A stretch of DNA of 25,535 nt from the IMG/VR virus record IMGVR_UViG_3300046616_000075, positions 1 through 25,535 of that record, one strand, 5' to 3'. Position numbers and translations under genes: made by a program. Below the pieces are notes generated by a model. The model did no database searches. It was given only the letters and a program-made list of their open reading frames with translations, and had not been told where the DNA came from. This document shows positions 7,787 to 25,535 of this stretch, piece by piece (position 1 is the first letter of the stretch; each line of letters starts with the position of its first letter). The DNA comes from a virus.

Positions 7787-8743
7787 ATGACTGTACCTTC
7801 AGCAACCGTGCAGGCGGTCGCTCGCGTCGGCGTGCGCGAGGATCTTTCTGACAAGATCGCGTCGCTCTATCCGAACGATGCACCCTTCTGCAAAGCCATC
7901 GGCAAAGGCTCGGCGAAGTCGACCTACACCGAATGGCAGACCGACTCGCTCACCGCCGCGAACGCGACGAATGCAGCGATTCAGGGTGATGATCTCGCCA
8001 ACGCGACCCGCGCGAATACCGTTCGCGTCGGCACGTACACGCAGATCATGACCAAGGTCGTCGGCACCTCGACCACCGTTGAAGCGGTCGACAAGGCTGG
8101 CCGCAAGTCGGAAATGGCCAAGGAAATCATGAAGTCTGGCAAGGAGCTCCAGACCGACAAGGAAAAGCGGTTCGTTGGCAATTACGCCTCCGTCGCCCCC
8201 CTTGCCGGTACGGCTGGCCAGACCGCTGGCGCCTTGGCGTGGTTGACCACCAACACCTCGCTTGCCGGTGCCGGTTCTCCGGCCAATGGCGGGTTCTCGG
8301 CGGGCATCGTCGCGGCTGCCACCAACGGCACCGCCCGGTCCTATACCGAGGCGCTGCTCAAGACCGTTCTAGCGAGCGTCTGGACGGCTGGCGGCAATCC
8401 GACGATGGTCATCACATCGATCGGCCAGAAGCAGACGGCGGCGGCGTTCGCTGGCCTTGCGACTGCGCGGCGTGAGTCCGGCGACAAGCGCCTGACGATC
8501 GTGGCCGGTGCCGATTACTACGTCTCGGACGTGGGTGAGGTGCAGTTCGTGCCCGACCGCTTCGCATCGACCCGCGATGCCCTGATCGTTGATCCGGAAT
8601 ATTGGGAAGAGGCTGTTCTCGACCCGCTTCAGGTCAAGGACATGGCTGTCACCGGACTTGCCACGCGCAAGATGATGTGGACGGAAACCGCGCTTAAGTG
8701 CCTCAACGAGGCCGCGTCGGGCGTGGTTCGCGATCTCAGCTAA
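7787..8743 (+). CDS. major capsid protein, DUF5309 (SU10-like) type
   Basis: This is the main shell protein. ATG at 7787 is 7 nt after AGGA (7776-7779); an in-frame ATG at 7724 lies inside the scaffold gene and is rejected. The 319-residue product begins with the DUF5309 signature layout: VGVREDLSDKIASLYPNDAPF (about 14-34), followed by a Gly-Lys-Gly turn and TEWQTDSL, then QGDDL, then a TQIMTKVVGTSTTVEAVDKAG segment, then GKELQTDKEKRFVGN. The C-terminal part has VQFVPDRF and LDPLQVKDMAVTGLATR, as expected for the peripheral and axial domains of this HK97-fold family. A strong terminator follows at 8771-8802. Confidence 0.92.
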   Translation: MTVPSATVQAVARVGVREDLSDKIASLYPNDAPFCKAIGKGSAKSTYTEWQTDSLTAANATNAAIQGDDLANATRANTVRVGTYTQIMTKVVGTSTTVEAVDKAGRKSEMAKEIMKSGKELQTDKEKRFVGNYASVAPLAGTAGQTAGALAWLTTNTSLAGAGSPANGGFSAGIVAAATNGTARSYTEALLKTVLASVWTAGGNPTMVITSIGQKQTAAAFAGLATARRESGDKRLTIVAGADYYVSDVGEVQFVPDRFASTRDALIVDPEYWEEAVLDPLQVKDMAVTGLATRKMMWTETALKCLNEAASGVVRDLS

Positions 8744-8770
8744 GTCTCCTCTCCCTTGGCTGACTGACTG

Positions 8771-8802
8771 GGGGCTGGCGTCCGCGCTGGCCCCTTTTCT
8801 TT
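8771..8802 (+). terminator. intrinsic terminator after the capsid gene
   Basis: GGGGCTGGCG (8771-8780), loop TCCG, CGCTGGCCCC (8785-8794) form a 10-bp stem with two G-T wobbles. TTTTCTTT follows at once. This is a textbook rho-independent terminator 28 nt after the capsid stop. It probably lowers transcription into the connector genes. Confidence 0.85.
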
Positions 8803-8812
8803 GGAGGTTCGT

Positions 8813-8974
8813 ATGACCACGAAAAAGAAAGAGCAGCATCTCGTTGCTGTCGAATGCACGATGGACGTGACCTTCCTGAGGGATGGGCGCCGTCTTCAGG
8901 CCGGCCAAAGCACATCCATCCCCGAAGACGAGGCTGTTGAGCTTGAGGTTCAGGAGCGCGTGAAGCGTGTCTGA
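8813..8974 (+). CDS. small hypothetical protein (53 aa)
   Basis: ATG at 8813 has a strong TTGGAGG site (8801-8807). The product begins with a Lys-rich tail (MTTKKKEQHLVAVECTM) and continues as a small beta-like segment, VTFLRDGRRLQAGQSTSIPE. That resembles the short phage proteins often found just after the capsid gene, which carry an A-G-x-x-x-x-I/V turn. No function is assigned. Its last codons overlap the GTG start of the next gene by 8 nt. It is the first gene after the terminator, so the strong ribosome site may compensate for reduced transcript. Confidence 0.65.
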   Translation: MTTKKKEQHLVAVECTMDVTFLRDGRRLQAGQSTSIPEDEAVELEVQERVKRV

Positions 8975-9299
8975 CTGGGATCTGGTCGACCACATACCCG
9001 AACAGGGCGTGAAGGTCTTCCACGGCTATGACGAGGCTACGGACAGCGTTCTGGTCAAACACGAGTTCGACGGCGCGGCGACCAATGCGGTTCTTGACCG
9101 TAACAAGGCGGTGGTGGCCGACAGTTGGAACAAGCGCGAGGACATGTGGCACGCGGCCCATATCCCGATCGCGGTCCAGTTCGAGTGGATCACCAAATAC
9201 GGTGTGGACTGCTGGAACCCGGCACATGTCGATGGCGTGAACCGCCTGCTCAATTCGAATGAATATCGCCACTGCCGCGTCCGGCATTTCATTATTTAG
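8967..9299 (+). CDS. conserved-looking podoviral protein (110 aa)
   Basis: GTG at 8967 is preceded by CAGGAG within the upstream gene. The product reads like a conserved podoviral family located between coat and adaptor genes: a central DRNKAVVADSWNKREDMWHA block, then IPIAVQFEWITKYGVDCWNP and VNRLLNSNEYRHCRV at the end. I have seen this DMWHAA...P..VQ.EW..KYG pattern in comparable head-region proteins but know no proven function. A head-completion or neck-associated role is an inference from position. Confidence 0.7.
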   Translation: MSDWDLVDHIPEQGVKVFHGYDEATDSVLVKHEFDGAATNAVLDRNKAVVADSWNKREDMWHAAHIPIAVQFEWITKYGVDCWNPAHVDGVNRLLNSNEYRHCRVRHFII

Positions 9300-16687: not shown

Positions 16688-17302
16688 ATGCCGATGAGCA
16701 ATTGGAGCGCAAATGCTGCCTCCAACGACAACACGCTTGGCGTTTTCATCGGCGAGGGCTGCGACGCCAGTAATCTGAACAACGCCGCGCGCGAGATCAT
16801 GGCCCAGACCAAGGCCAAGTTCGACAGCACCGACGCGTCCATTACCGCCATCGGCACGCCGCAGCCATTTTCCGCGATCCTTGAGGCCCTTTCAAATGCC
16901 GGGGCGGCAGCGGACAGCATTCCGCTTTATACCGGGCCTGGCTCCGCCACCGTCATCCCGGTCACGGCCTTTGCCCGTTCGGTATTCGATGACGCCGATG
17001 CAGCGACTGCAAGGGCAACGCTCGGGGCCATTTCCGTCAGTGCCGCGTCGTTCGCCAACCCCGGTTACGTAGCGCTCAACCTGCTTAGCTACGGCCTGTT
17101 TTTGGCGCAGTTCGGCAGCGGATCAATCGGCGCCAGCGCGTCGCAGGTTATCACTTTCCCAACCCCGTTCAGCAGTGCCGGATATCCGGTGATTACAGGA
17201 TCTGCCGCGCTCACCGTGACGGCGGTTTCGACCTCTTCCTTCACCATCAACAACGCAACCGGCGGAACCGTGACGTACCGCTGGCAGGCGCTAGGGCAAT
17301 AG
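16688..17302 (+). CDS. tail fibre protein with gp53-like C-terminus
   Basis: The 204-residue product has a short helical N-terminal part with NNAAREIMAQTKAKFDSTD, a pattern familiar in fibre proteins that attach by the N-terminus. A short repeat-like middle (DDADAATARATLGAIS) follows, a typical fibre segment of the form T-A-R-x-x-L-G-A. The C-terminal beta domain (about 125-204, GSGSIGASASQVITFPTPF ... GTVTYRWQALGQ) resembles the gp53-like tail fibre C-terminal fold, where FP.pF and W.A.G occur in this order. ATG at 16688 has a weak GGGA site; ATG at 16694 is an alternative. It is probably a receptor-contacting or adaptor fibre. Confidence 0.7.
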   Translation: MPMSNWSANAASNDNTLGVFIGEGCDASNLNNAAREIMAQTKAKFDSTDASITAIGTPQPFSAILEALSNAGAAADSIPLYTGPGSATVIPVTAFARSVFDDADAATARATLGAISVSAASFANPGYVALNLLSYGLFLAQFGSGSIGASASQVITFPTPFSSAGYPVITGSAALTVTAVSTSSFTINNATGGTVTYRWQALGQ

Positions 17303-17303
17303 C

Positions 17304-18167
17304 ATGAAGAAACTTGCCGACACCGTCATCAATACGAACACGGGGCGCCCGATGAAGAATGCCTTGGTTGAGTTGCTGTTCGGCGGAATCGTCACCACGA
17401 TCTACACCGACAATGCCCAAGGTGGCGCCGCGCTCGGCATGTATACCAATGGCAACGGTCTGTACGAATTCTACGCGCCAGATGGGGCCTATACGCTGCG
17501 GATCAGTTACGGCGGCGAGATCATTACCATTACCGATATCGAGATCTACGACGACAGCGAGGACCGGGCCAAAACCGCCCGCGCGATCCTTGTTCCAACT
17601 GGAGAGGTAGGCCCGACCCTTCCGGCAGCGGCTGATCGAACGGGCAAGTTCCTTGTCGGCGTCGCCGGGGGTGGGATCGGCGTTGCATCAGGGACCGGAG
17701 CTGATGCGAACCTGCGGAACGACCTTTCAGCGACCAACGGTTCCGCACTCGTTGAATATGACGGGTCCACGGTCAAGGCCGCGCTGGATAGCATAGCTGC
17801 TGTTCGCGCCGGGAAGTCTTTCATCACGCAGGGTTCGGCGGTCGGCGGAACGGGTGCCCAGGTCGAGATCGCCTATGACGATGCGTTCGTCATGCCAGCA
17901 ACCGGCATCGTCAAATTCACCGCGGTCATGACGTGTGGCCCCTCGGGGGCTGGCGCGGCATGGAATACGCATTTCCGGGTCGATGGCGCTGGATTGATCG
18001 GCATTCGCGGGTTCGAGGCGAGCGCAAGCATCGTGAATTTCACGAACATTGCCTACGCGACCGTAACGGCCGGGACGCATCGCATCTCGCTCTACTGGTT
18101 CGGCGGCAACGGCCTGATCGGGGTGGGCGGCACTGAAAAAGCTATTCTGATTGCGGAGGCGATGTGA
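17304..18167 (+). CDS. tail fibre/appendage protein (287 aa)
   Basis: The N-terminal domain (about 1-95) reads as a transthyretin-like or carboxypeptidase-regulatory beta fold: VINTNTGRPMKNALVELLFG, GNGLYEFYAPDGAYTLRISY, then a closing strand TDIEIYDD. A segment LRNDLSATNGSALVEYDGST (about 136-155) with a following DSIAAVRAG matches the linker that commonly joins a virion-binding head to the outer part of podoviral tailspikes. The C-terminal 110 residues are beta-rich and may be a small jelly-roll-like tip (TAGTHRISLYWFGGNGLIGV). No catalytic motif is seen. It starts one base after the previous stop and ends in a GTGA overlap. Confidence 0.7.
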   Translation: MKKLADTVINTNTGRPMKNALVELLFGGIVTTIYTDNAQGGAALGMYTNGNGLYEFYAPDGAYTLRISYGGEIITITDIEIYDDSEDRAKTARAILVPTGEVGPTLPAAADRTGKFLVGVAGGGIGVASGTGADANLRNDLSATNGSALVEYDGSTVKAALDSIAAVRAGKSFITQGSAVGGTGAQVEIAYDDAFVMPATGIVKFTAVMTCGPSGAGAAWNTHFRVDGAGLIGIRGFEASASIVNFTNIAYATVTAGTHRISLYWFGGNGLIGVGGTEKAILIAEAM

Positions 18168-19614: not shown

Positions 19615-19744
19615 CGCAAAGGGCGAGATGGAAGGGCGGGACTGCCTCATGGGACCGCTTGAGCTTTACGTCGTTGCAGGCGCGTTTCGGCAGCAATTAA
19701 TGGCCCTGATCGCGGCTGAAAAGGCACGAAAGGACGCACGATGA
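19457..19744 (+). CDS. o-spanin (Rz1-like lipoprotein), nested in the Rz-like gene
   Basis: ATG at 19457 lies inside the i-spanin gene in another frame, with AGGA (19444-19447) 9 nt upstream, and the frame continues 130 nt past the Rz-like stop. The 95-residue product begins with a basic N-terminus and hydrophobic signal (SIIMFALMGMGC) and a lipobox-like cysteine at residue 22. This fits outer-membrane lipoproteins. The Gly at -3 is unusual for a lipobox, and the second Cys at 24 is an alternative. The mature part is longer and less Pro-rich than lambda Rz1. With the i-spanin it would fuse inner and outer membranes at lysis. Confidence 0.75.
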   Translation: MRQRASLSARSIIMFALMGMGCGCSITRAPLQTPTFDASLLVTPQELPAMPRNAKGEMEGRDCLMGPLELYVVAGAFRQQLMALIAAEKARKDAR

Positions 19745-19854
19745 ACGGTCTTGGGCTCGGTCTTGGCTCGAAAAGTCAGGGCGGCGGCGGGTCGTCGCCT
19801 TCAACCGCAGGCACGCCGATCGGCCTGCTTCTCATTCTAACAAAGGCAAGTTGA
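19741..19854 (+). CDS. short Gly-rich peptide gene (37 aa)
   Basis: ATG at 19741 overlaps the o-spanin stop (ATGA). The product starts MNGLGLGLGSKSQGGGGSS, then STAGTP, and ends in a hydrophobic IGLLLILTKAS. It is a flexible Gly/Ser peptide with a hydrophobic tip. Short proteins with this opening are found among phage tail-appendage genes, but I know no function. Its 3' end overlaps the end of the minus-strand endonuclease gene by 23 nt, so the original 3' end may have been changed by that insertion. Confidence 0.55.
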   Translation: MNGLGLGLGSKSQGGGGSSPSTAGTPIGLLLILTKAS

Positions 19855-20401
19855 GCGATGACTTCGGCAGTATCTTTCCTGTCCTTGGGTCACGACGACC
19901 GATCAGGTCAACATATGGGTGGTGTTGATTCCGGCATTGCTCCTGTTGTGTTGCCCACCGACAATTCCCAGGCTCGTAACCTTTGGAATTATCGATCCGG
20001 TCAACGGTATGCTTTCTTGTCGGACGTTCGCCCATATCTTCAACGAAGGCCGCAAAAGACGTCGCCCAGCGTTCGCAAACACGGACACCCTTCCCTCCGT
20101 AATATGGGTACCCGACATTCTTCGGGTTGTTGCAGCGTGAAATCATCGCGCTGTAATTCTTATATGTCTGCGACCGAGACATTCCATGACGCTCAAGCGG
20201 CTTTCCGCCCGCACATCCGCAATTCTTACTTGTCCCATTTTTCAGCGTTTGGGCGGCAACAATTCTCTCTTCGCCGCAATCGCACCGGGCCAAGCAGTGG
20301 ACACGTCCATATTTCCGGTGGCCGTCGTTCAGGACTGTCCATGTCCCAAACCTCTGTCCCGTCATGGAGGTGTAATTCCATGGTTTATTGTAGTTCGCCA
20401 T
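19832..20401 (-). CDS. HNH-type homing endonuclease-like protein
   Basis: The 189-residue minus-strand product is clearly a real gene. A TGQRFGTWTVL opening is followed by a zinc-finger-like part with Cys40/Cys42 and Cys61/Cys63 (CDCG ... CGC). Then come a YKNYSAMISRCNNP segment, YYGGKGVRVCERWATSFAAF, and a terminal core DRIDNSKGYEPGNCRWAT (134-151) with His131 just ahead and Asn158 after. This order is the familiar phage HNH homing-type family that nicks or cuts DNA at an unoccupied site. It is the only sizeable gene facing the opposite way in the window, which fits a mobile intron-free element inserted among tail genes. ATG at 20401-20399. Confidence 0.85.
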   Translation of the reverse strand: MANYNKPWNYTSMTGQRFGTWTVLNDGHRKYGRVHCLARCDCGEERIVAAQTLKNGTSKNCGCAGGKPLERHGMSRSQTYKNYSAMISRCNNPKNVGYPYYGGKGVRVCERWATSFAAFVEDMGERPTRKHTVDRIDNSKGYEPGNCRWATQQEQCRNQHHPYVDLIGRRDPRTGKILPKSSLNLPLLE

Positions 20402-20438
20402 TGCCCGGATTTACCACACTTATGAAAGGTTATCAACC

Positions 20439-21332
20439 ATGAGCGACAATGTGCAGGTCACAGCCGGAACCGGGACTACGATTGCAGCGGATGATGTTGG
20501 CGGCGTCCTTTTTCAGCGGGTCAAGCTCGGCCTTGGTGCTGATGGTACTGCGGTTGACGCGGTCGCGGGCGAAGGTGTGTCGGGTACGGCTGTCCAACGC
20601 GTCGTGCTGGCGAGCGACGGTGCTGTCACAGGCGGCGTAACCGAAACTGCTCCTGCGACCGACACGGCGTCCTCCGGTCTTAATGGCCGTCTCCAGCGCA
20701 TCGCCCAGCGGTTGACCAGCCTGATTGCGCTTATTCCCGCTGCGCTCGGTCAGACCACTAAATCCGCATCGATGTCCGTTACGATCGCCAGCGATCAGGG
20801 CGAGATCGGCAAGGCCTATAGCGGGATATTCAACGTGAACGCGCCCGCGATGACGCGGCCTGCAAACACGACCGCTTATACCGCACTCGACAGCATTTCC
20901 GATAATGCGACGGCGGGGTCAGTGACGGCGAATTCTGTCTCATTGAGCGACACCAACGATGTTCCGATCGACATCGCGGAAATCCTACTTGTCTCGACCG
21001 ACACCGGGCCGGGAACTGCTGGTATCCAGATCCGGCTGCACGTCTTCAACTCCGATCCAACCGCCAGCACTGGTGTCGTTGGTGGCGACAACGCGGCGTG
21101 GTCGAACAAACAAGCGGGTTGGGTAGGCTCGTTCTCCGGCACAATGCGATCATTCTCGGACGGATCGTGCGGCGTCCTCGTGCCCGATGAAGGGTCGCTT
21201 CGCATCTGCAACCCGGTTTCCGGGGCAAAGACGCTGTTCTGGCAACTCCAGACCCTCGGAGCTTTCACCCCGAGCGCCAACAGCACGACCTTCACTCCGC
21301 GTTTCAAGGGGTTCCAGGGTCGTGTTGCTTGA
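20439..21332 (+). CDS. tail appendage structural protein (297 aa)
   Basis: ATG at 20439 has AAAGG about 8 nt upstream (20426-20430). The product is Ala/Thr/Ser/Gly-rich with no signal peptide. Its N-terminal block TAGTGTTIAADDVGGVLFQR followed by VKLGLGADG is a pattern I know from phage and prophage structural proteins in tail regions. The C-terminal half (about 130-297) is beta-rich and ends with [20 protein letters not shown]. No catalytic residues can be proposed. It is the first full gene after the endonuclease and overlaps the next gene by 11 nt. Together with its neighbours it forms one of two similar three-gene sets. Confidence 0.65.
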   Translation: MSDNVQVTAGTGTTIAADDVGGVLFQRVKLGLGADGTAVDAVAGEGVSGTAVQRVVLASDGAVTGGVTETAPATDTASSGLNGRLQRIAQRLTSLIALIPAALGQTTKSASMSVTIASDQGEIGKAYSGIFNVNAPAMTRPANTTAYTALDSISDNATAGSVTANSVSLSDTNDVPIDIAEILLVSTDTGPGTAGIQIRLHVFNSDPTASTGVVGGDNAAWSNKQAGWVGSFSGTMRSFSDGSCGVLVPDEGSLRICNPVSGAKTLFWQLQTLGAFTPSANSTTFTPRFKGFQGRVA

Positions 21333-22011
21333 TGGGTCGGTAGGGCGGCGCCTGTTACAAGGGCGCGCGCTCTCAACATGGACCGGGCTACCGCGCGCTG
21401 GCAGCCCAACCAAGACGCTTAGCTCTACGTCGGACAGCACCAGCGTTCCGGTAACCCTTGCGCCCCATCGGCGAGGAGACGCGCTGATTGTCGCTGTGGC
21501 CGGGGATGGCAATCCAGCCCTTACTCACACCGGCTGGACTACCCTTATCGCGTGGGCGAACAGCACAAATAATAACATCTATATCCTGAGGCGCGACACC
21601 GACGCCCAAGGTCCGGGGGAGACAGGTCCGACCTTCACCTTCGACGCAGCCCAGCAATATGAGGCGATGGCGTGGTCTGTTCCCGGCGGATCGACCATTA
21701 CCTTCACCGCGCCCGCTTCGGCCACGAACGGAACATCGACCGCGCCAGATGCGGCCTCCTACTCGCCCGGCAGCACCAAAGATTATCTCTGGATCACGAT
21801 TTTCTGTGCGGACAACAACACTGGCGTGACGGTTACGGGTACCCCGACCGGTTATTCCGGCCTCGATAATCGCTGGAACGGTAACTCCGGCGGCGTGCTG
21901 CTCGGGGCAGGGCACAAGGCCACCACGGGCACGACAACTGAAAATGCGGGTGCATGGGGCCTCAGCGGTTCTGAAACATGGATCGCGGTCACGATCGCGG
22001 CGGCGCCTTAA
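21322..22011 (+). CDS. beta-rich appendage protein, paralogue A (229 aa)
   Basis: No ATG lies near the 5' end, so GTG at 21322 (or TTG at 21325) is the best start, after a GGG site; the N-terminal 25 residues are uncertain. From about residue 26 it reads RAGSP, then [19 protein letters not shown]. Later come a [12 protein letters not shown] segment, [11 protein letters not shown] and a final [12 protein letters not shown]. The same order occurs in the gene at 22936, so the two are paralogues. The composition suggests a compact beta-sandwich, possibly a fibre tip or carbohydrate-contacting protein. No known domain name is assigned. Confidence 0.65.
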
Positions 22012-22027
22012 ACACCGGGAGAAATTG

Positions 22028-22273
22028 ATGGGCACTATCGCAATTGGCGGGGACGCCTCCCCGCCGACGACCATTCCAGCGCCTACTCCGACTCCAACCC
22101 CGACTCCCACGCCTACGCCTACGCCAAGTCCTACGCCAAGTCCTACGCCCACCCCGACGCCAACACCCACTCCAACCCCCACACCTACCCCAACGCCTAC
22201 CCCGACCTACACACCGTCCCTTGTGATGGGTGACGCGCGAAACGATCAATACGTAATCGCTCGCATTTTCTGA
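22028..22273 (+). CDS. Thr-Pro repeat peptide (81 aa)
   Basis: ATG at 22028 has GGGAG about 6 nt upstream (22017-22021). The product begins [15 protein letters not shown], then has twenty consecutive (Thr/Ser)-Pro dipeptides (residues 20-59), and ends in a short conserved-looking module, [18 protein letters not shown]. Such Thr-Pro runs form stiff extended spacers. The protein could be a rod or stalk that displays the C-terminal module, or an extended connector between tail parts. It is placed like the Gly-rich peptide gene at 19741: a short flexible gene ahead of a structural gene and a beta-rich paralogue. Confidence 0.65.
22085..22204 (+). repeat. 20-unit hexanucleotide array encoding (Thr/Ser)-Pro
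   Basis: Twenty consecutive six-base units encode Thr-Pro (18) or Ser-Pro (2). All four Thr codons and all four Pro codons are used, so the array is conserved mainly at protein level rather than as an exact DNA repeat. A local exact duplication (acgccaagtcct twice, about 22121-22144) shows that slippage has also occurred. Confidence 0.9.
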
Positions 22274-22303
22274 ATTTTCCACACAATCTGAAGGAGTAAC
22301 GCA

Positions 22304-22939
22304 ATGCCAGCAGGCTTTGTGACCATCCCCGTATTGGACGCGGCTGGCATCTCGCGCAGTTTCCGTAAATGGTCCGATTCCGGGGCTGTCGACGGCAATC
22401 TTTACGATGTCTATGTCGACCCGAACACCGGCCTCCCGATCAACCCGGCGTCCACGGTTTCCGTTGCTGGTGCTGATGCCCATGACGCGGTCCCGGCGGC
22501 CAATCCGTTCGGCCAGGGCGTCCTGGCATCGACAGCTCTCCCGACCGCGGTTGCCAACGGGGACATGGTTCGCCTGATCGGTGACATCTATGGCCGGATG
22601 ATCGCCATGCCAGCCCTGCGCGAGCAGATCGGCGTCCAATTCACCACAATCTCCAGCACCTCCGAAACCACGATCGTTACTGCCGCATCGGGCATCAAGA
22701 ACGACCTTGTCGCGCTGCTCATCAGCAACACGCACGCCAGCACGGACGCCAACGTCACGATCAAGGACGGGACCGCCGGAACGACGGTCGGGGTCATTCC
22801 CGCGGTTCACGCGCAGCCTCCCGCAGGTTTCACGATCGGCTTTCCGATCCCTGCGGCGGCTGCAAACACCAACTGGACCGCGACGTGCAGCGGTTCGGCC
22901 ACCGTCAACGTCACCGCCATCTACATCAAGAACAAATGA
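22304..22939 (+). CDS. tail appendage structural protein (211 aa)
   Basis: A strong GAAGGAG site precedes the ATG at 22304. The product has no signal peptide. Its N-terminus VLDAAGISRSFRKWSDSGAV is followed by YVDPNTGLPINPA, a pattern comparable in place to the 20439 product but not obviously homologous over its length. The C-terminal part (about 110-211) is beta-rich: GVQFTTISSTSETTIVTAAS, LLISNTHASTDANVTIKDGT and a final NVTAIYIKNK strand. That resembles jelly-roll-like decoration or fibre-associated proteins of phages. It is coupled to paralogue B by an ATGA overlap. Confidence 0.65.
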   Translation: MPAGFVTIPVLDAAGISRSFRKWSDSGAVDGNLYDVYVDPNTGLPINPASTVSVAGADAHDAVPAANPFGQGVLASTALPTAVANGDMVRLIGDIYGRMIAMPALREQIGVQFTTISSTSETTIVTAASGIKNDLVALLISNTHASTDANVTIKDGTAGTTVGVIPAVHAQPPAGFTIGFPIPAAAANTNWTATCSGSATVNVTAIYIKNK

Positions 22940-23631
22940 CCGCGCCGACGTTTCGTGCGGGCAGCCCGCAAACGACCATCGATGATACGGATGGAACGAC
23001 GTTTACGGCCACGCTTCCAACCCATGAGCCGGGTGATTTCCTGTACATCTGGATTGCTGCAGACGGCGAAATAACGATCACGGCCCCCGCCGGATGGACG
23101 CAGGTACAGCTCCGCGCGCACCCGACAACCGTTACCGGCGCCTTCTTCAAGAAGGACGTTGCGACGACAGGGTCGACCTCGGGCGGAACTCCGGACAGCA
23201 ATCCGGTTTTCACGCTCGGAGCAAGCCAGTCTGCCACCTCGCTGGCATGGGCCATTCACGGAACCTCGATCGAGGTTGAATCCACCACCGGGACGAACGG
23301 CTCGGCCACCAACGCCGACCCGCCAAGCCTGACATGCTCGACAAGTGCCGATTGGCTGTTCGGCGCGCTCTATGCGGGTGATGGACAAAGTGGGCCGTCC
23401 GTTGCCCCCTCGGGCTATTCCAACCTCATCAACAACCAATCCGGGGTATCGACCGGCGCATCGTCAGGCGCGGCCTACAAGAGCACGACGGCCTCCACGG
23501 GGGATAATCCCGGAACCTTCACGAACCCGACCGATCAATGGGTCGCGGTCACCGTAGCGTGGCGCGATTCAGCCGCCCCTCCAGCGGCGACCAACCACGC
23601 CCCGCGTATCTCCATGATGGGAGTCGGCTAA
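22936..23631 (+). CDS. beta-rich appendage protein, paralogue B (231 aa)
   Basis: ATG at 22936 overlaps the previous stop (ATGA). The sequence follows paralogue A (21322-22011) block for block: PTFRAGSP at the start, IAADGEITITAPAGWTQV, then a Thr/Ser-rich middle, APSGYSNLINNQSG, AAYKSTTASTGDN and DQWVAVTVAWRDS. It then has an extra C-terminal tail, APPAATNHAPRISMMGVG, that A lacks. The fold is probably a beta-sandwich. It may be a receptor-binding or structural accessory of the tailspike encoded next, whose ATG overlaps this stop by one base. Confidence 0.7.
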   Translation: MTAPTFRAGSPQTTIDDTDGTTFTATLPTHEPGDFLYIWIAADGEITITAPAGWTQVQLRAHPTTVTGAFFKKDVATTGSTSGGTPDSNPVFTLGASQSATSLAWAIHGTSIEVESTTGTNGSATNADPPSLTCSTSADWLFGALYAGDGQSGPSVAPSGYSNLINNQSGVSTGASSGAAYKSTTASTGDNPGTFTNPTDQWVAVTVAWRDSAAPPAATNHAPRISMMGVG

Positions 23632-25535
23632 TGCTATTTCGGCACCAGCACTCGCTCCGCCCTCCCGTCAACACGGTCCTGCCGACACTGACAGGCAGCC
23701 TCATCAACGCCGAGGTTCTCTCCGGCGCCGATGGCACATGGGATGTTGCTTTTGTCGAAAAGCAATATCGCTGGCTCTCCGCAGTCGCCCCATATGTCAG
23801 CTATTCCGCGATCGGCGGGGCAACGTCTTCGACCTTCACCCTGACCGGCACACAGATCAGCGCCAGAATCATCCGAAGCGTCCGCGTTCGCAATGCCGAT
23901 GGCTGGTCGGATTGGGCCGACAGTGCAGTCTCCGCAATCGTTCAGGACAACCCGACACTCCCCATTGGCATCTCCGGAACTCCGATTACCGGAGCGCTTC
24001 AGAACAGCCCCTATTCGTTCACTGTTACCGGGCTTAACGGCACGCCGGGGACCTCCCCGAAATACACCTTTGCGCTGGTCGGAAGCTGGCCAGCCGGGGC
24101 AACGATTACCCCCAACGCAGCGGGCGACCAGGCAACGATAAGCGGCCCGTTCGCCGTTCCCGGCTCCTATGGCGGGCTCTCTGTCAGCGTGACCGACAGC
24201 GTTGCGTCGTCGGCAAGCCTTGCGAGCTTCAATCTCACGGTCACCTCGAGCAACTACATTAAAATCACCCCTGGAACCGGCTGGACCGGGACCACGGCGG
24301 GCGCGACCAATATCGGGTCATCCTCAGGGGTAGGCTACGGCCATCACCCGGGAGTCTGGTGGGCCGCTCCGCAGTGGGATGAACTCACCGGGCAGACGCT
24401 CATGGAATTTCTCTGCTTCCATACCGGCGATCAGTCGCGGTGGAACAGCATCCAGAACCCGATGTGGGGGCTGGATTATGTACAGGTCAGCGTCGACAAC
24501 GGTACATGGGCGACTATCGCGCCGTCGTTCGATCCGGCAAGCAACCGCTGGGCCTATCGGTTCTACATCGACGCCGCTGATTTTCCGAACCGAGTTTACA
24601 CCACCACCGGGACTATCCTGAACGAGATCCGGGTAAACCCGGTCCCGATCAATGGCGACAGCGTCATAGGACAGGGCACGTCGCAATATGGGCCTTGTGG
24701 ATACCGTTTCGTCACCAACGCGACCGGCGGTCTTTCATCCACCGTCAAATATGTCGACAGCGTCAATGGCGACGACACGAACAACAACGGAAACGCGGCG
24801 GGGACGGCCTACAAGACGATAGCCAAGGCCCAGGCCGTGATCGGCGCCAATCTCGGCGGGTCGCGGATCAAGCTCCGGAACGGCTCCTACAACCTCCCGA
24901 CCAACGGCTTCAGCAACAACGGACGGTGGGCCATCATCGAGGCCGACACCGGCCAGACCAATGTCATCATTACAGGAGCGTCAGGCTCCGGGATGCCGAT
25001 GCTCCGGCTTCGCGGCGTCAAATACGGCAGCACCTTCCCGTTCCCGGTTCAAAGCACGGGATCGCTCTGGGTCGACAACTGCATCTGGGATCGCAATCTA
25101 CTGGCCGGCGGGCAGGATTGGGTGAAGGTTGGTCAGTTCAACGCCACGCAAAACAAATATATCGACGGCATTTTCCCGGTGACCTCGCAGAGCGCCAACA
25201 TCTTCGTGACCGGTGGAGAGGTTGTAAACTGGCCCAACGGCTTCCCGGTTGGGCGGCTTATCAAGGACCATACCATCACCCGGATCGCGAGCGATGCGTT
25301 TCGCGGCGCGCACTGCGTTCTTAATTGTACGGTCGGAACCATCACGGCTGGCAAGATCCAGACCGCTCCCGGAGTGGATCAGGCAGGCGACGGATATCAT
25401 GCCGACTTCGATCAGCAGTTCGCCACGCCGACCAATCAGGTAACGACAGACTATTCATGGGGATCGTGCTTCTACAACGTCGATTGTACGACGGGGAATG
25501 CAGATAGCCAGGGTCCGTTCTATGACGACAACGGG
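23631..25535 (+). CDS. tailspike with parallel beta-helix, 3' end beyond the window
   Basis: An unbroken frame of 635 codons runs from ATG 23631 (GGGAG site 8 nt upstream) to the window edge. The N-terminal part includes repeated fibronectin-like strands (SARIIRSVRVRNADGWSDWA). A cadherin/Ig-like (He_PIG-type) segment spans about 109-205 (GISGTPITGALQNSPYSFTV). A beta-sandwich-like region with GVWWAAPQWDEL follows. From about residue 372 comes KYVDSVNGDD ... GTAYKTIAKAQAVIG, the classic entry to a right-handed parallel beta-helix of the pectate-lyase type. It continues with short helix turns (IKLRNGSYNLP, VDNCIWDRN, GDGYHADF). This is the likely host-surface-binding or polysaccharide-cleaving spike; catalytic residues cannot be assigned. 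Confidence 0.8.
   Translation, partial: MLFRHQHSLRPPVNTVLPTLTGSLINAEVLSGADGTWDVAFVEKQYRWLSAVAPYVSYSAIGGATSSTFTLTGTQISARIIRSVRVRNADGWSDWADSAVSAIVQDNPTLPIGISGTPITGALQNSPYSFTVTGLNGTPGTSPKYTFALVGSWPAGATITPNAAGDQATISGPFAVPGSYGGLSVSVTDSVASSASLASFNLTVTSSNYIKITPGTGWTGTTAGATNIGSSSGVGYGHHPGVWWAAPQWDELTGQTLMEFLCFHTGDQSRWNSIQNPMWGLDYVQVSVDNGTWATIAPSFDPASNRWAYRFYIDAADFPNRVYTTTGTILNEIRVNPVPINGDSVIGQGTSQYGPCGYRFVTNATGGLSSTVKYVDSVNGDDTNNNGNAAGTAYKTIAKAQAVIGANLGGSRIKLRNGSYNLPTNGFSNNGRWAIIEADTGQTNVIITGASGSGMPMLRLRGVKYGSTFPFPVQSTGSLWVDNCIWDRNLLAGGQDWVKVGQFNATQNKYIDGIFPVTSQSANIFVTGGEVVNWPNGFPVGRLIKDHTITRIASDAFRGAHCVLNCTVGTITAGKIQTAPGVDQAGDGYHADFDQQFATPTNQVTTDYSWGSCFYNVDCTTGNADSQGPFYDDNG

Follow-up and report, generated by a model that had tools for sequence, protein, structure and literature searches.

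This work deals with two successive sets of genes in the virus record IMGVR_UViG_3300046616_000075 of IMG/VR, which has 25,535 nucleotides (nt) and was analysed in full (the window). Each set is formed by a short peptide, a medium-sized protein (m) and a beta-rich protein (b). They are bordered on one side by the lysis genes and on the other by a tailspike-like open reading frame (ORF) which runs off the contig. In our interpretation, to which we assign a probability of about 0.6, each set is a cassette that was assembled on its own, and recombination has stacked the two upstream of what is probably a beta-helix tailspike; m would be an adaptor and b a host-contact protein. Stacking is preferred over duplication because b1 and b2 are not joined in the best trees, the m genes are unrelated and the two peptides belong to different classes. 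The features of the region are as follows (aa, amino acids):

19741..19854, plus strand: Gly-rich peptide of set 1, 37 aa, with the C-terminal end STAGTPIGLLLILTKAS
19832..20401, minus strand: HNH endonuclease gene (phrog_374, E 4.7e-54), inserted at the peptide/m1 junction
20439..21332, plus strand: m1, 297 aa; from module profiles, a type-A N-terminus, the helix module midA and the C-terminal beta domain ctdA
21322..22011, plus strand: b1, 229 aa from a GTG codon (doubtful start), a beta-rich protein of minor tail type
22028..22273, plus strand: Thr-Pro-rich peptide of set 2, 81 aa, with a C-terminal motif of the class PSLxFxxxxNSQY(I/V)GQV
22304..22939, plus strand: m2, 211 aa; type-B N-terminus (weak assignment), midB and the C-terminal beta domain ctdB
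22936..23631, plus strand: b2, 231 aa, a beta-rich protein of minor tail type; ATGA overlap with m2
23631..25535, plus strand: probable tailspike, directly after b2, cut by the contig end

A preliminary description of this DNA had located these ORFs correctly and in the right order, and had seen in them a three-gene plan which is repeated. The order is real and b1 is related to b2, but neither the m proteins nor the peptides have a clear similarity. Furthermore the HNH gene (minus strand, 19832-20401) separates the Gly peptide from m1, so that set 1 is not formed today by three adjacent genes. Among the corresponding genes of the two sets only the b1/b2 pair is homologous.

Comparison of the two sets

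The sequences leave no doubt that b1 and b2 are homologous. They have 33% identity over 215 aa (BLASTP, E 5e-21) and an HHalign probability of 98.9. Their Smith-Waterman score is 275, to be compared with a mean of 54.5 in shuffled sequences (standard deviation 9.9, maximum 89; z 22), and 0/500 shuffles are as good. The blocks RAGSP, A-DG..GWT, GYS-L, KATTGTT/KSTTAST and WIAVT/WVAVT, which had been noticed before, are common to both proteins and appear in the same order. Protein b1 is also homologous to the b proteins of five viral contigs of our survey, designated by L numbers (L065, L067, L069, L070 and L074): in the comparison across phages the identities are 34% for b1-b2, 34% for b1 and the L069 protein and 31% for b1 and the L067 protein.

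In none of the best trees, built with 8, 10 and 14 rows, are b1 and b2 sisters. In the two smaller trees b1 goes with the L067 type and b2 is nearer to the L072 type; in the 14-row tree, where long branches are flagged, they are again apart. When the clade (b1,b2) is forced, the approximately unbiased test (p-AU) gives 0.0135 with 8 rows, 0.0467 with 10 rows and 0.167 with 14 rows.

Searches of viral contigs with b1 or b2 as single proteins found no relatives, nor did an alignment of both sequences in viral and genome contigs: they were recovered only with a three-sequence alignment which included the L065 protein. In phage isolates tblastn gave nothing for b2 and a single non-significant match for b1; the link to isolates was obtained through a match of m1 and through fold searches. 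HHalign detected no match of b1/b2 with the phrog_553-like beta proteins of L003, L008 and L043, and therefore we do not claim sequence homology to them. The weak sequence matches of b2 in the PDB (antibody light chains, Ika8) were disregarded. A domain of b type is also found at the N-terminus of longer proteins (L072 5065-6180, L073 7935-9632, L075 7926-10448); in L073 and L075, a different kind of phage with other neighbours, it is followed by Ser-Pro-rich repeats. The beginning of b1 (21322-21400) has no convincing start: a start at GTG/TTG lies within the last part of m1 and gives an N-terminus unlike those of b2 and of the other relatives of b1. An out-of-frame ATG at 21378 sits where homologues begin. 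A frameshift, an assembly error or a recombination scar are possible causes.

Pairwise and profile comparisons, which had been proposed as a check of the repeated plan, fail to relate m1 to m2: z is 0.3, with 173/500 shuffles equal or better (Smith-Waterman), BLASTP has no match and HHalign has none for the N-terminal, middle or C-terminal parts. Their modules were searched with profiles over 61 contigs, some of which are redundant: ntdA is found in 19 ORFs, midA in 62, midB in 12, ctdA in 18 and ctdB in 14. Four contigs (L003, L008, L057, L065) have chimeras, in which an N-terminus of m1 type is joined to a C-terminus of m2 type. These profiles show that the predicted m proteins are put together from N-terminal, helical and C-terminal modules which can be exchanged, so that m1 and m2 are two picks from one module pool and not recognisable copies. 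The type-B N-terminus of m2 is assigned from a weak match of 5.9 bits; m2 has 40-49% identity over 140-177 aa with the m proteins found directly before b in L067, L069, L070 and L065. Some m proteins contain three or four tandem copies of midA (L006 7986-9212, L052 2636-4048, L023 2309-3451).

The two peptides of the window are not clearly similar either (z 2.6, 10/500 shuffles as good). The preliminary description had proposed that one ancestral unit was duplicated and diverged. A tandem duplication of one peptide-m-b unit, followed by extreme divergence or by replacement of m1 and its peptide, agrees with the homology of b1 and b2 and with their same relative place; the 14-row tree does not reject them as sisters (p-AU 0.167), and the C-terminal domains of both m proteins are beta-rich. 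On the other hand m1 and m2 lack any detectable similarity, the motif classes of the peptides differ and each class accompanies its own m type in unrelated phages. Also b1 is as close to the b of other phages as to b2 (34% each), and they are not the closest relatives in the best trees. A simple duplication is not supported, and we consider the version with later replacement unlikely.

Occurrence in other phages

Our survey gave relatives of m1 from 45 viral contigs, of the Gly peptide from 13 and of b from 9, with overlap between the lists; a collection of phage isolates was also searched. Judging from predicted genes, the order peptide-m-partner is shown to be a recurrent cassette, usually in single copy, in otherwise unrelated phages and often with a tailspike after it. 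In L067, L069 and L070 there is a single set: an Rz-like gene, an m2-like gene, b and a tailspike. Four Rhizobium phages of the Schitoviridae (RHph_I1_6, RHph_N38, RHEph22 and RHph_Y38) have peptide, m, b and a fibre-like gene. In RHph_TM2_3B a peptide of GLLLLLT type and m are followed by a longer protein, whose C-terminal part is b, and then by a pectin lyase tailspike. L065 has an Rz-like gene of the same kind as in L067, L069 and L070, followed by peptide-m-x-m-m2-b; placed beside L067, its gene order shows what appears to be an m2-b core to which other m units have been added on the upstream side. The partner which follows m is variable: it may be b-like, LamG-like, an SGNH hydrolase or a tailspike, labels which come mostly from reading of the sequence.

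The survey of copy number which the preliminary description had suggested thus finds the three-part unit in other phages, usually once, while the window holds two. More than one m is present in only 4/61 contigs and two b only in the window, counts which are lower bounds since many of the contigs are fragments. In the isolates a query matched at a single place in each record that it found.

Short peptides

The Gly peptide ends with the motif STAGQPIGLLLxLTKA, which is also found in L004, L005, L006, L054-L057 and L060-L065. The distance between its stop codon and the start of m is usually 2-5 nt, the exceptions being junctions with an inserted gene. In 14 sequences the departure from the commonest base is 0.089, 0.054 and 0.487 at codon positions 1, 2 and 3: the third position varies freely and the other two barely, which indicates a real conserved protein, selected as such. 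A conservation purely at the DNA level, as a ribosome-binding site or a recombination anchor, is rejected as sole cause by the same free variation. A similar motif, PLGLLLALT, is found at the start of a 1012-aa protein of L003 (9115-12153), which has many repeats of TxTQxATARITK type.

The end of the Thr-Pro peptide resembles a second class, PSLxFxxxxNSQY(I/V)GQV, which we will call QY. Peptides of this class are directly upstream of m in L007, L014, L023, phage PPF1 and five Rhizobium Schitoviridae. The one of RHph_I1_6 (about 49 aa) is unannotated; its homologues in N38, RHEph22 and Y38 are annotated. QY peptides before m are located as follows:

L076, 4718-4867
L077, 5259-5702
L014, 7158-7637
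L007, 7676-7879
L023, 1754-2308

The Gly class is found only before m of type A (14 loci, 3 of them, window included, with a gene inserted in between) and the QY class only before m of type B (10 loci, about 6 lineages). The association of peptide class with class of m N-terminus, 14/0 against 0/6 lineages, has a Fisher p of 2.6e-5. The C-terminal motif of the peptide and the N-terminus of m might fit each other as plug-and-socket pairs, STAGQPIGLLLxLTKA matching type A and PSLxFxxxxNSQYxGQV matching type B, a suggestion which we regard as rather doubtful.

These data also bear on the view that there is no functional unit at all: the accumulation of beta-rich accessory genes in the variable region beside the tailspike would be accidental, and the order would be a coincidence together with one paralogous pair. 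The lack of relationship between m1 and m2 and between the peptides fits this view, as does the wide variation of the partner after m. However, a peptide immediately before m and m immediately before a partner recur both in uncultured contigs and in isolates, which represent two or more families as well as unclassified phages; the Gly peptide is under selection at the protein level, and peptide class co-segregates with the class of m N-terminus. Chance gathering is therefore very improbable.

Genes inserted between peptide and m

The HNH gene of the window has a counterpart in L057 (8082-8663): the same gene at the same junction, with 74% DNA identity over 754 nt which include part of both flanks. 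L059 has a different endonuclease-like gene (8058-8645) after the peptide, also at this junction. The junction is uninterrupted in L004-L006, L054, L055, L061, L063 and L065. By its HNH profile and its insertion at a conserved site, the gene in the window fits a free-standing HNH homing endonuclease. In L064 a gene of 351 aa (8113-9168), glycosyltransferase-like from reading of its sequence, lies between the Gly peptide and m.

Structure and possible role

No named family was found in Pfam, PHROGs or NCBIfam for m1, m2, b1 or b2. The AlphaFold2 model of b2 is all beta (predicted local distance difference test 62.4, predicted template modelling score 0.66). It has 18 matches in BFVD with E<=0.001, the best one 1.5e-5, and a template modelling score (TM) to the query of up to 0.67; for most top matches it is about 0.57-0.67. 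The fold also matches a minor tail protein of mycobacteriophage Shauna1 (E 4.1e-3, TM 0.54); the many other phage proteins matched include several hydrolase-fused ones and some annotated as phosphodiesterases. In the PDB there is no significant match, the weak top one being the receptor-binding head of Tuc2009 (E 0.33). In sequence, b2 matches gp036 of RHph_I1_6, called 'minor tail protein' in RefSeq, with E 2e-8 over 62 aa of the N-terminal part only; the b profile matches it with 7.4e-10. Neither b1 nor b2 has a PHROG match at E<=1, and a further search with b2 gave none at 0.01; 5/12 aligned members of the b family match phrog_13352, a minor tail protein. From this model and these relatives, b would be a host-contact domain of minor tail type.

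The truncated ORF 23631-25535 has no Pfam match. It has 28-38% identity with the protein after b in L067/L069, and a short match to annotated pectin-lyase tailspikes, one with Pfam Beta_helix: residues 365-415 have 45-52% identity over 42-51 aa with the tailspikes of RHph_Y5A and RHph_TM2_3B. Place, partners and fold point to a role of the cassette products in tail appendages and host contact. A host-contact role had already been suggested in the preliminary description; the minor-tail relatives and the position beside a probable beta-helix tailspike fit it.

In the AlphaFold2 model of m1, residues 1-69 have low confidence, residues 81-102 form a helix (the midA motif) and a beta domain begins at about 129. 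This C-terminal domain is jelly-roll-like: its matches in Foldseek are jelly-roll folds of viral capsids (best E 4.9e-4), with the lectin BC2L-C as a weaker match. The resemblance to capsid folds raises the idea that m and b decorate the head, as head-fibre or capsid decoration proteins, instead of the tail; in L003, moreover, m and b come shortly after a gene which reads as capsid-like. Jelly rolls are also common in receptor-binding proteins, which counts against this idea, many of the surveyed m and b genes adjoin tailspike, fibre or lysis genes, and relatives of b are annotated as minor tail proteins. A location on the head is thus quite improbable.

We propose that m would be docked to the tail and oligomerised through its N-terminus and helix, the peptide serving as a linker or docking partner, while the C-terminal jelly roll of m and the b protein would be exposed and bind sugars of the host surface. 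In other phages, different binding or enzyme domains would have taken the place of b. In the window the m2-b2-tailspike set may be the older one, and set 1 (peptide-m1-b1) may have come in upstream of it by recombination and not as its copy; the HNH gene may have entered set 1.

Several points weigh against this proposal. The m, b and peptide products are assigned to the virion by inference, and in the main text of a proteomics paper on CL131, a phage with an m gene, the m ORF is not named. The b2 model has modest confidence, and none of its PDB matches is significant. The test which would reject b1 and b2 as sisters does not give a stable outcome (p-AU from 0.0135 to 0.167), so that an old duplication in place with later replacement of m1 and its peptide keeps some probability. 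Finally, the pairing of peptides with N-termini may be plain linkage of neighbouring DNA and not contact; the pattern was spotted post hoc, and the QY loci turned up incidentally, without a systematic search.

Genomic context

Head genes of the window are recognised: portal (phrog_1216, E 4.9e-109), scaffold and major head protein. Two more genes belong to virion structural families, one to phrog_2941 and the other to phrog_3287 with an additional match to head closure Hc3, and a phrog_5880 protein is present. The phage is likely to be short-tailed, judging from relatives of its portal which include LUZ24 and Sinorhizobium phage phiM5. Downstream of the head genes there are two fibre-like genes, then an amidase (18534) and Rz-like frames:

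16688-17302: fibre-like gene 1, upstream of the lysis genes
17304-18167: fibre-like gene 2, upstream of the lysis genes

The matches of these two genes are a Gp53-like C-terminus, below the cut-off, and weak ones to tail spike and tail fiber PHROGs.

Relation to known systems

The preliminary description had suggested an undescribed system, which is too strong. The receptor-binding proteins of phages are well known to shuffle their domains (PMC10684548), and in other phages the fold and family of the b domain already carry the annotation minor tail protein. The cassette region is a variant of known mosaic phage adhesin regions. It has in common with the shuffled receptor-binding proteins (PMC10684548) the exchangeable modules, the repeated recombination and the hydrolase- or lectin-like partners; it differs in that shuffling also covers neighbouring small genes, a separate adaptor and a short peptide, and not only the domains of one long fibre. 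A description of the peptide-m-partner cassette did not turn up in the literature searched, which does not prove its novelty.

Among minor tail proteins, PP745_gp036 of RHph_I1_6 (Rhizobium Schitoviridae; phrog_13352, phrog_553) is like b2 in sequence and is also found directly after m, and those of mycobacteriophages (Shauna1) have the same predicted beta fold as b2. Unlike these families, b1 and b2 reach no PHROG profile and occur twice in one phage. The branched tailspike complex of Ackermannviridae, as outlined in PMC11414711, is alike in having several receptor-binding proteins in one phage; a single complex of m, b and tailspike in the window is only inferred. In Sulfitobacter phage PhiGT1 two adjacent divergent paralogues of tubeA arose by fusion between genomes and not by recent duplication (PMC10386132). 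TubeA is a tail hub protein, whereas the window concerns tail appendages. Free-standing phage HNH homing endonucleases, as outlined in PMC2988022, resemble our case by an HNH gene at a conserved junction, whose empty form the window protein may cleave.

Most genes in such regions are annotated as hypothetical and some of the short peptides have been missed. Naming the peptide-m-partner cassette provides a gene-order rule to find candidate host-contact genes across unrelated phages. If the plug-and-socket pairs were true, at least two adhesin cassettes could be stacked on one tail without cross-assembly, and contact proteins could be added as independent cartridges. The idea we offer is that phages may gain contact proteins by stacking cassettes, not by editing one fibre.

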